This document shows, piece by piece, positions 33,138-36,548 of a stretch of DNA of 58,613 bases; position 1 is the stretch's first letter; each line of letters begins with the position of its first letter. The stretch is from an uncultured Bacilli bacterium. Its GTDB lineage: Bacteria > Bacillota_I > Bacilli_A > RF39 > UBA660. The notes under the pieces are model-generated. The model had not been told where the DNA came from. It was given only the letters and a program-made list of their open reading frames with translations, and ran no database searches. Location: positions 1 through 58,613 of the forward strand of contig CANROW010000005.1 in assembly GCA_947632345.1 (NCBI GenBank), read 5' to 3'. Made by a program: the position numbers and the translations under genes.

Positions 33138-33169
33138 AAAGTACAATGAATTGTCATTGTATTTTTTTT
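33138..33169 (+). terminator. Terminator after the AI-2E permease gene
   Basis: TACAATGA and TCATTGTA form a perfect 8-base stem with an ATTG loop and a long T-tract. Confidence 0.9.
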
Positions 33170-33221
33170 ATAGTATAATGTTAATAATTGCAAATTTGAA
33201 TAAATGCATGACGAGGTGTTT

Positions 33222-36200
33222 ATGAATTTAGATCGATTATTAAGACGGAAAATATCGGCGACGACTATAATGGAACATCCTGATTGGTTACCTTATTTAA
33301 TGGGTGTGGATTTAGTCGATTGTCTGCGTGAAAAATATGCAATCGTTGAAGATGAGGATAACTTTGGTTTTGTCGAACAGAATACGGTCAATATATATAA
33401 ATTACTCATCCAAACGATGTCTAAAAATGAATTATTAGATTTGATCAGTAAATATGGTAGATATATCGATAAATACAATTTTACTTTTAGTAAAAAGGCC
33501 ATCGCTGATTCAGCGTCTGTCAAAAGAGAATTAATAAAATATATATATATCAATTTGATGAAAGATCGCAGTGTGTTTCTCGACGAGTTACCAATAGAAT
33601 TTAGAAAGTTATATCCTAAAATATTTCTTAGTGATGAGGCTCCATTAGAGTTAAAGAAACTATTTTATCATCGCGAAGTAACTTCTTCTTATATCATTGA
33701 ACATCCTGAATATAGAAAATTCTTAATCGATTTAGATATGCGTTTCCTTTTTAATGAATTCAACGTTTTAGAGCATCATCGTGATGGTAGTAGTCGTAGC
33801 GTCAACTTAGTTTCTCTTTTAGAAGAGCGATACGGCAAAGAACGAGCTTTTGATATTTTATCTGTATATGACCCGTATTTATCACGTTTAAATGCTCGTG
33901 CTAAAAGTAATATTATTATTCAAGATACAGATGGTATAAATGACATATTAAATAAGCTCGACAGTAATATCTTTGCGATGATAACGACCAAACATTCTTT
34001 TTATGATATGAATATGTCCCAACATTTTAAAAATAATTATCCAGAACTATTTCTGCCAGATGACGCTCCTAAAGAATTAAAAGTCAAGTTTTATGCTCAA
34101 GATTTATCCATTGAAGATTTCCTAAATCATCCAGAGTATATCAATTATTTTAAAAATACAAATATTGAATATGGATGTCGCGGATTTATTTGGCTAAATG
34201 AGTTCTTTAAAGAAGATTCAATTCAAGAGGCTAATAGCAAAAAGTTGAAGCTATTATATGAGTTTGCCAAGGTGAACGACGCTGTTCTTGAGGAAAATTT
34301 AAAAGAATTTATTCTAGCCAATAGAGAGCATTTAGATATGAGTAAAGTTGGATATATGGCTGATATTTTGTGCCGTCTTTCCTTATCTAATTCCATTGAA
34401 ATCTATAATTTTAGAATGGAAATAGCAGAACAACTTTTAAAGACTGATAATCCAATTGATAATTTGAAAAAAATTGAGAATTTATTTCTCAAAAACAATA
34501 TTCCGACGATTGGGAAAATCTATTCAGTTTTCAATATTTTACATCCTCAATTTAAAGGTTTTGATTTCTCTGATGATTCTATGATTTCACCTGTTTTAAA
34601 AAGTAAATCGAATATGGCTAAAAGTATCATTGTTTTCTCTGATCTGATCCGAACAGCTTTTGGCAGCAATAACCGGTCCATTAGAAATTATTTGGACGAT
34701 TTAGAAAAGGGAAATATGGTATTTGAAGCAATCTTTAAAGGTGAAGTGACAATTGATAAGTTAGAGGAAAAGCAAAGAAAGCATTTTGATAAATTTTGTA
34801 AATACTTGAAAACGATGTATGAAAGTGCGCGACTAGGTAAAGAAAGCGACACATTTAGTGATAATGACTTTGAAAATGTTCTATTATTTAAAAAAATTTA
34901 TTCTCCCGATGGGACATTGGATTATAATTTAGCAGATCGAGTTGTATCAATGTTTTGTCATTTTGTGGGAATTGACACTTTGGCTCAAGCAAAAGAGTAT
35001 TTGAATATGGTTGTTAAAGAAGCTGATGCCCGAAATCGTGTTAGAGGTGAACAGAAGATGGAGTTAGAGGAGGGCGATTTTGTTAAAGGTATAGGCGAAA
35101 TAAACTTTTTAGGTAAAATTCTCCAAAATGGAAGTATTGCTAAAGAGTTCTTGGGAGCTAGTGCTTTATCTGATGCAACGCCCTTAGATACTGATCTATC
35201 GCGCATTATGGCATCAGATGGATCGATTGCTCAAAAAATAGCTCTAACGGAAGCTGGTGAATATGGTCCCATTTGGGTCATTTTGAAAAACGATGATCGG
35301 TTGAAATTGACTAGAGATAGAGAAGGTAATGACTATGATACGCGTCACGATTCTTCTAAACTCGAAATATTTTATACTGGTGCGATGGGCAATAGTCACT
35401 ATGGCATAAGAACAGGTTTTCCTTCAACTGCTATTGATTATATCGTTACTGATGAGCCATACGATGAAAGAATAGGTTTAGAAATCGCGATGAATGGCTT
35501 TTATATACCCGTCGCTAATAAAGCAGGGACAATTGTCTTTAAGCCTCGGGATTATGATTTGATGAGAGAAAAGTTGCGCGGTTTAAAGCCTTATAGTGAG
35601 GGATTTTACGAATGTTCCCCAAATTTAGTCAATGATAGTACGACGATGATTGTGAACCAATTAGAAGAAAGTCGAGAAACGATTAGGCAAAAGCGCATTA
35701 TCATTTATGAGGCAATGGCTAAGACTTTAGAAGAACTATCTAGTCACTATCTTTTTAAGGATATGCCGTTGTGTTTAAAAACTAGCGTCGATGGTGATTT
35801 ATTGCCGGGTAAAGTAGAAGTTATTGATATAGGGTCAACTGGTAGAGATACGAATGTTATAAAAGATGGCGATTTCGATTTCATCATCCGTTTAGATCGC
35901 TCGATTATTACTTCACCTATCAAAATGAAACTTTTTAGAAGTACGCTTCTTAAAAATTTAGAAAAGGATGATGTTGAGCGTGAAGAAGTCACAGGTCTTG
36001 GTGATTTTCGTCTAAAAGATGTTCAGCTTGATGATATGATTGCAAATATTGACGTTTCATTTGAATTAAAAACTGATGAGCTTTCTTATTCGACCGATAT
36101 GGCTCTAAAGGATAGATTGGATTCAATAAAGGAACAATCCCCAGCGCAATATGATTATGTTTTAGCTAATATCATTCTCGCTAAATGGGTTTTAAAGAAT

Positions 36201-36548
36201 GCCGGAGTATATAAATCAAAGCGTAGTGAAGAATCACAGGGAGGATTAGGTGGTGTCGGTATTGAAACCTGGATTTTGAATCATGGTGGATCCTTTGAAG
36301 ATGCCGCCAAAAGTTTTGTGGCTGTAGCTGACGATAAATCCTTTGAAGAATTTAAAAAATGTTATCCAATATATGACTTTGGTGAAAATCATTTTTCAAT
36401 AAGGGATGGAAAATATCCTCATAGTGAATTTATATCAACTAATATGACTAAAAACGGATATGAAAGAATGGTTGTAACATTAAAAAACTATTTACAAAGA
36501 GAATTGGGACAAAATCAAGAATTAGGTAATGCTCATAAAAGAGTATGA
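33222..36548 (+). CDS. 1108-residue protein with a C-terminal class I CCA/OAS-like nucleotidyltransferase
   Basis: I chose the ATG at 33222, preceded by GAGGTG. Residues 1-640 are helical and include three similar segments of the type HPEYxxxL/HPDWxxYL near 19, 158 and 305. Residues about 650-800 hold a mixed domain with YGIRTGFPSTAIDYIV and EIAMNGFYIPV. The C-terminal part is a polymerase-beta-type nucleotidyltransferase: GS at 871-872, DGDFD with Asp884 and Asp886, and a third Asp944 in ANIDVSF. It continues with ILAKWVLKNAGVY (985-997) and GGVGIETWILNHGGSF (about 1010-1025), which resembles the head of archaeal (class I) CCA-adding enzymes and the OAS/cGAS superfamily. Bacteria normally use class II CCA enzymes. 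Substrate and product are unknown. Cytoplasmic; monocistronic. Confidence 0.75.
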   Translation: MNLDRLLRRKISATTIMEHPDWLPYLMGVDLVDCLREKYAIVEDEDNFGFVEQNTVNIYKLLIQTMSKNELLDLISKYGRYIDKYNFTFSKKAIADSASVKRELIKYIYINLMKDRSVFLDELPIEFRKLYPKIFLSDEAPLELKKLFYHREVTSSYIIEHPEYRKFLIDLDMRFLFNEFNVLEHHRDGSSRSVNLVSLLEERYGKERAFDILSVYDPYLSRLNARAKSNIIIQDTDGINDILNKLDSNIFAMITTKHSFYDMNMSQHFKNNYPELFLPDDAPKELKVKFYAQDLSIEDFLNHPEYINYFKNTNIEYGCRGFIWLNEFFKEDSIQEANSKKLKLLYEFAKVNDAVLEENLKEFILANREHLDMSKVGYMADILCRLSLSNSIEIYNFRMEIAEQLLKTDNPIDNLKKIENLFLKNNIPTIGKIYSVFNILHPQFKGFDFSDDSMISPVLKSKSNMAKSIIVFSDLIRTAFGSNNRSIRNYLDDLEKGNMVFEAIFKGEVTIDKLEEKQRKHFDKFCKYLKTMYESARLGKESDTFSDNDFENVLLFKKIYSPDGTLDYNLADRVVSMFCHFVGIDTLAQAKEYLNMVVKEADARNRVRGEQKMELEEGDFVKGIGEINFLGKILQNGSIAKEFLGASALSDATPLDTDLSRIMASDGSIAQKIALTEAGEYGPIWVILKNDDRLKLTRDREGNDYDTRHDSSKLEIFYTGAMGNSHYGIRTGFPSTAIDYIVTDEPYDERIGLEIAMNGFYIPVANKAGTIVFKPRDYDLMREKLRGLKPYSEGFYECSPNLVNDSTTMIVNQLEESRETIRQKRIIIYEAMAKTLEELSSHYLFKDMPLCLKTSVDGDLLPGKVEVIDIGSTGRDTNVIKDGDFDFIIRLDRSIITSPIKMKLFRSTLLKNLEKDDVEREEVTGLGDFRLKDVQLDDMIANIDVSFELKTDELSYSTDMALKDRLDSIKEQSPAQYDYVLANIILAKWVLKNAGVYKSKRSEESQGGLGGVGIETWILNHGGSFEDAAKSFVAVADDKSFEEFKKCYPIYDFGENHFSIRDGKYPHSEFISTNMTKNGYERMVVTLKNYLQRELGQNQELGNAHKRV

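Follow-up and report, generated by a model that had tools for sequence, protein, structure and literature searches.

An ADP-ribosyltransferase-fold domain and a CCA/CD-NTase-like nucleotidyltransferase predicted in tandem in a sporadic repeat protein of uncultured Bacilli

Analysis of a window of 58,613 nucleotides, i.e., the whole stretch of DNA considered here, from an uncultured Bacilli bacterium showed that one of its genes encodes a 1108-aa protein in which three N-terminal helical repeats precede a predicted ADP-ribosyltransferase (ART)-fold domain and a predicted C-terminal nucleotidyltransferase (NTase) domain. We give about an even chance to the reading that this gene is a single-gene, horizontally moving conflict effector. 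Each of the domains belongs to a known superfamily. No description of the conserved tandem of ART and CCA/CD-NTase was found in the open-access literature searched, and an earlier account elsewhere is possible.

The gene, its start signals and the region between the repeats and the enzymatic domains are as follows:

33151-33179, plus strand: sigma-70-type promoter TTGTCA-17-TATAAT, a consensus match only (11 of 12 positions)
33213-33218, plus strand: ribosome-binding site GAGGTG, read from the sequence, 3 bases before ATG 33222
33222-36548, plus strand: coding sequence, 1108 aa, from the reading frame, homologs and dN/dS in relatives
34359-35006, plus strand: segment linking the repeats to the enzymes, residues 380-595, with conservation seen in the alignment of the family

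The ORF is intact and its frame is open from position 33204. ATG 33222 was taken as the start because GAGGTG and the near-consensus promoter lie 5′ of it; both elements support the start proposed in the initial annotation. The ORF is real, with a promoter of its own and purifying selection in relatives. In pairs of close relatives dN/dS was 0.07-0.22 in both catalytic domains, and the protein is therefore maintained, as expected under purifying selection. Scans of the 1108-aa protein alone with Pfam, NCBIfam, PHROGs and PADLOC gave no family above cut-off, and a sequence search of the PDB, with the single sequence as well as with a profile, gave no match.

To the C-terminal part we assign the following features, with conservation counted in an alignment of 55 non-redundant relatives:

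35637-36512, plus strand: predicted nucleotidyltransferase domain (class I CCA/PAP/CD-NTase core), residues 806-1097 (Z 16.4, rmsd 3.6, 228 residues)
35832-35837, plus strand: GS motif, residues 871-872 (54/54 relatives)
35871-35879, plus strand: DFD, predicted catalytic D884 and D886 (each 54/54)
36051-36053, plus strand: D944, predicted third catalytic Asp (53/53)

G871, S872, R875, D884 and D886 were found in 54 of 54 relatives and D944 in 53 of 53, far above chance; the GS, DxD and third Asp lie where they had been placed at first reading. An AlphaFold model of residues 596-1108, computed from an alignment of 30 sequences, reached pLDDT 88 and pTM 0.86, and in this model D884 and D886 start one strand while D944 is located in another, as the fold would have it. 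Structural comparison of residues 800-1097 with archaeal CCA-adding enzymes gave Z 16.4 with an rmsd of 3.6 over 227-228 residues at 16% identity; the head and neck fold and the GS/DxD/D set are shared with the class I CCA-adding enzyme of A. fulgidus (PDB 3ova, 4x4u). The next matches were poly(A) polymerase (PAP; Z about 15), terminal uridylyltransferase and the ILF3/ILF2 (NF90/NF45) pair (Z 14.6 for both) and the CD-NTases (Z 14.0-14.4, with DwCdnB at 14.4). The proposed likeness of the helical part to archaeal CCA enzymes and CD-NTases was in this way recovered. The Z steps between the CCA, PAP, uridylyltransferase and CD-NTase groups amount to about 1 unit or less. Profile searches of 30 members gave weak matches to NTP_transf_2 (20 members), to the PADLOC oligonucleotide-cyclase profiles of CBASS (25 members, best 1.2e-4) and to NCBIfam cca_archaeal (7 members, best 0.0015). 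The C-terminal part is thus predicted with high confidence to be a Pol-beta-type NTase, as the initial annotation held, with the class I CCA/PAP/CD-NTase catalytic core and a branch within the fold that the Z scores do not settle. Weak matches to HEPN (PF18735) on the helical part in 10 of the 30 members (best 2.6e-6; the one match given in detail fell under its cut-off) were set aside, as the fold search gives a CCA/PAP neck there.

The name class I CCA fits as a fold, but not as a role. The alignment to the archaeal enzyme covers only its residues 4-252 of about 437, and the window protein ends 11 residues further on; the body and tail domains with which class I CCA enzymes hold tRNA are absent, and the PF09249 profile gave no match. 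Unlike the archaeal enzyme, the protein is bacterial, sporadic and fused to an ART. Since the protein has no tail for binding tRNA, and since an ordinary class II CCA-type gene scores above profile cut-off in the genome, we do not regard the protein as a housekeeping CCA enzyme. A housekeeping or backup role in adding CCA to tRNA, to which the catalytic-core fold and the cca_archaeal matches would point, is also at odds with the finding that >90% of the genomes sampled in the family lack the gene, and we consider it very improbable.

The cyclase profiles bear on another alternative, that of a CD-NTase-like signal synthase in which the repeats would sense, the NTase would make a (cyclic) oligonucleotide or NAD-derived messenger, and the ART would be an in-cis responder or modifier. 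The domain has the same core fold and size as the CBASS cyclases CdnC, CdnB and CdnE (Z about 14), lacks the CCA tail and belongs to a gene that is spread sporadically like defence genes. Yet the window protein itself matched no PADLOC family, CCA and PAP score slightly above the CD-NTases in structure, and the ART-NTase unit occurs also within giant type VII-linked proteins (see below). Unlike CBASS, there is no nearby effector gene, nor a conserved neighbour to serve as one, and the cyclase-like domain is preceded by an ART domain and a helical-repeat N-terminus. We regard signal synthesis as the main alternative, though on balance rather unlikely.

The domain containing YGIRTGFPSTAIDYIV was noticed initially as a separate domain, which it is, and was taken for a mere sensor or substrate-binding part. 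Modelling it alone gave instead an ADP-ribosyltransferase fold:

35007-35636, plus strand: predicted ADP-ribosyltransferase-fold domain, residues 596-805 (model pLDDT 84; Tpt1/KptA Z 8.7, DarT Z 8.1)
35085-35087, plus strand: K622, strand 1, in the place of H/R in ART triads (K in 42 and R in 10 relatives; placed by secondary structure)
35364-35366, plus strand: E715, strand 5, candidate ART catalytic Glu (53/53 relatives; strand placement from the model)

The first ten Foldseek rows for residues 596-805 were DarT, PARP1, Tpt1 and exotoxin A, all of them weak (E 0.03-0.5), and VIA-align gave Z 8.7 over 103 residues to yeast Tpt1 and Z 8.1 over 125 residues to Thermus DarT. The first 27 structural matches were without exception ARTs, as were most of the top 50. 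Because the single scores are modest, what carries the fold call is that many distinct families of ARTs agree. A fold search of BFVD gave nothing under 0.001, with PARP-like viral proteins among its weak matches. E715 (pattern KxE) is invariant in 53 of 53 relatives and lies within strand 119-123 of the model of residues 596-805, i.e., on strand 5, the place of the catalytic glutamate in ARTs; D656, D658, R730, T731 and G732 are likewise invariant, and dN/dS in this domain is 0.12-0.19. A Glu is common to the H-Y-E and R-S-E ART motifs (PMC8883491), and the catalytic glutamate of DarT1 is E152 (PMC11543638). Triad position 1 (residue 622) holds K or R, which makes the triad non-standard. As modelled, residues 596-805 adopt an ART fold whose predicted site is conserved yet unusual. 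We infer that this domain uses NAD+, a chemistry that is less secure because of the non-standard triad position 1. An ART-fold domain that is catalytically dead and structural only, leaving the NTase as the sole enzyme, would be consistent with the K/R at this position, with the lack of a clear residue for triad position 2 and with the weak Foldseek E values (best 0.03), but the invariant E715, R730, D656 and D658 and the low dN/dS speak against it, and we judge it quite improbable.

The ART core and the invariant strand-5 Glu are shared with DarT, and the core also with Tpt1/KptA. Unlike these proteins, the domain has no sequence-profile match (PF14487 for DarT was found neither in the own genome nor in the Pfam scan of the protein; PF01885 for Tpt1/KptA was not found in the own genome), carries K/R at triad position 1 and has no antitoxin-type neighbour. 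Profile searches of genomes of the phylum found DarT in 0 of 100 and KptA in 0 of 120. Tpt1 is matched over its C-terminal lobe only (archaeal residues 90-182), with the N-lobe unmatched. These data touch on a role in RNA repair, where a KptA-like ART would remove a 2′-phosphate or cap RNA ends and a CCA-like NTase would restore nucleotides lost on tRNA cleavage. The top structural matches of the two domains are indeed Tpt1/KptA and the CCA-adding enzyme, and the RNA-repair sets of phages include enzymes of both types (PMC9503650, PMC7824862). The match to one Tpt1 lobe without PF01885, the lack of a recurring ligase or kinase neighbour and the tie to giants with an ART-toxin domain make this reading improbable.

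The ART and NTase domains are kept together in nearly all relatives (about 50), most of which are 1,100-1,800 aa long. At one locus (L116) they form a 558-aa protein after a separate 572-aa ORF, and at another (L117) a 407-aa version with only the ART end and the NTase follows a 1210-aa ORF. A short relative of 381 aa, again ART end and NTase only, was observed at L034/L037 (G001:C148). Further relatives carry other helical-looking N-termini ahead of the unit. In giant proteins the unit is internal (L112, 5100 aa; L113 and L114, >3000 aa each; L110, >6600 aa), and in L110, L112 and L113 it is followed by an ADP-ribosyltransferase-toxin domain (PF03496, E 1e-14 to 8e-17). Just before the giant gene of L114 lie small ORFs and the C-terminal half of EssC, and before that of L112 three small ORFs, one with a weak WXG100 match (E 0.05). 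EssC of the own genome is on another contig, and no EssC/WXG100-like gene adjoins the window gene. Because no EssC scores above cut-off in G008, which carries the protein, secretion does not appear to be general.

Other features of these loci were also recorded. The >6,600-aa ORF (L110 1-20000 and the start of L111) has in addition weak metallopeptidase and HopA1 matches. Similar ORFs of 111-113 aa overlap the ends of two giant genes (L112 16550-16885; L113 9064-9405) and are followed in both by a near-identical 125-aa ORF; the small ORFs are possible immunity genes, the first of them with no Pfam match. On two contigs labelled Clostridia (L024/L025 6825-11007) the gene is in two frames with the break inside the NTase domain, which is decay or a frameshift.

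The repeated HPExxxxL segments pointed out initially are real, at residues 19, 161 and 303, with three profile copies:

33246-33317, plus strand: first copy of the helical repeat, core at residues 9-32, HPDW motif (repeat profile)
33642-33737, plus strand: second copy of the helical repeat, core at residues 141-172, HPEY motif (repeat profile)
34068-34175, plus strand: third copy of the helical repeat, core at residues 283-318, HPEY motif (repeat profile)

The HPE/HPD motifs are spaced by exactly 142 residues. According to the unit profile, the repeat of about 140 aa occurs in 3 copies in the window protein and in 2-5 in relatives, and it is absent from the family libraries searched. The window protein begins at the first copy, while most relatives have several hundred residues before the repeats. 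Contig C31 of the own genome encodes a second relative of full length (1663 aa), which over about 630 N-terminal residues is 78% identical to a 1619-aa ORF on contig C4. The two endings differ: the C31 protein ends in ART-NTase, the C4 protein in a 'DPLAMAIGTLTDCCQ' domain that recurs in more repeat proteins of other genomes. The pattern of the sequences is that of modular helical-repeat proteins whose N-termini and endings appear to be exchanged.

The proteins with the latter ending form a second class of repeat proteins (L044 6965-11824, i.e., the own-genome C4 protein, and L169-L177), and their ending 'DPLAMAIGTLTDCCQ...GRVFVIKDxxGNIVAQSWVWRN' has no Pfam match. At L172 (2137-12656) both classes are adjacent on one strand; the 347-aa ORF between them weakly matches aldehyde dehydrogenase (E 6e-4), and an ORF of similar appearance lies after the C4 protein (L044 5947-7005). 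A 370-aa ORF with no assigned family is directly upstream of the own-genome paralog (L045 1017-2129).

When genome contigs were scanned, 25 loci were found. Within the window's taxonomic family the NTase domain was detected in 31 of 385 genomes (24 of 150 genera); it was further detected in 3 of 392 genomes of a phylum-wide sample, all three in this family, and on four contigs labelled Clostridia. Phage, plasmid and viral-contig collections contained no relative. A match on G006:C4 (E 6.6e-4) lies within a surface-protein-like ORF and was taken as chance. The window gene is flanked by relA/spoT, dtd, an AI-2E transporter gene, a transglutaminase-like gene and S20, so it was correct that it does not stand next to an effector. 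The downstream neighbour is the convergent transglutaminase-like gene; no small gene recurs, no effector, antitoxin or immunity gene family was found next to the gene, and no neighbour is common to the relatives. Both in the window and in G008 the gene lies between the AI-2E transporter and transglutaminase-like genes, which in six congeners (G001, G002, G004, G005, G006 and G007) are directly adjacent and convergent with no insert. Near this site, G004 has an extra 249-aa ORF between the transglutaminase-like gene and S20 (L123 11810-12559).

The same-site proteins of the window and G008 are 49% identical, whereas three upstream neighbours are 81-87% identical, and in the tree the window protein groups with G450 and not with G008 (moderate support); for these reasons we do not take the G008 copy for a plain ortholog. 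The own paralog pairs as sister with a copy from another species, congeners are scattered over the tree, and the giants linked to type VII genes branch at two different points (L099; L096 with L097). Because of the empty site, the low same-site identity and the shuffled tree, the simplest reading of the sequences is horizontal transfer with module exchange.

The reading as a conflict effector is favoured by both predicted folds, the almost constant pairing of the two domains, the invariant predicted catalytic positions and purifying selection, by the sporadic spread, the empty site in 6 congeners, the shuffled tree and the swapped N-termini, and by the giants, of which L110, L112 and L113 carry PF03496 and two adjoin EssC/WXG100-like genes. 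The conflict domains named for polyvalent and polymorphic-toxin proteins include both ARTs and Pol-beta NTases (PMC5512222). Against it stand the lack of an immunity or antitoxin gene, the lack of a phage, plasmid or viral match, a secretion that is not general and the non-standard triad. As such an effector, the protein would recognise a trigger or partner by its variable helical N-terminus, which would hold the enzymes off or target them. The released unit would then modify its target, a nucleic acid or a protein, with the use of NAD+ and NTPs, and would so arrest the cell acted in, i.e., the infected cell itself or, where the relative is a giant linked to type VII genes, a target cell. RNA ends or nucleotides would be the favoured substrates, because the closest folds of both halves act on nucleic acids or nucleotides. 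Of the roughly 700 N-terminal residues initially assigned to sensing or substrate binding, the ART-fold middle domain does not fit that role, and for the repeats we infer a recognition part. The two enzymes may also be coupled on one substrate (nucleic acid, protein or nucleotide), to which the ART would add ADP-ribose before the NTase extends or nucleotidylates it, or an NAD-derived messenger may be the product; we hold such coupling to be unlikely. To our knowledge, no toxin or immune system is known to couple ART and NTase chemistry in this way.

Swapped modules and the presence of ART and Pol-beta NTase domains are also seen in polyvalent proteins and polymorphic toxins (PMC3482391, PMC5512222), and NTase toxins of the RelA/SpoT type are already known (PMC3482391). 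Like polymorphic toxins, the family has giant multi-enzyme relatives, some of which adjoin type VII genes, and a common N-terminus with swapped C-termini (C31 vs. C4 paralogs); unlike them, it has no adjacent immunity gene. Both halves of the protein belong to superfamilies that are central to bacterial immunity and toxins, and conservation gives a clear list of residues for mutation. The gene is spread sporadically across a whole family of uncultured gut-type Bacilli, where such weapons are little known. If the proposed reading is true, NAD+ and nucleotide chemistry would be linked within one polypeptide.
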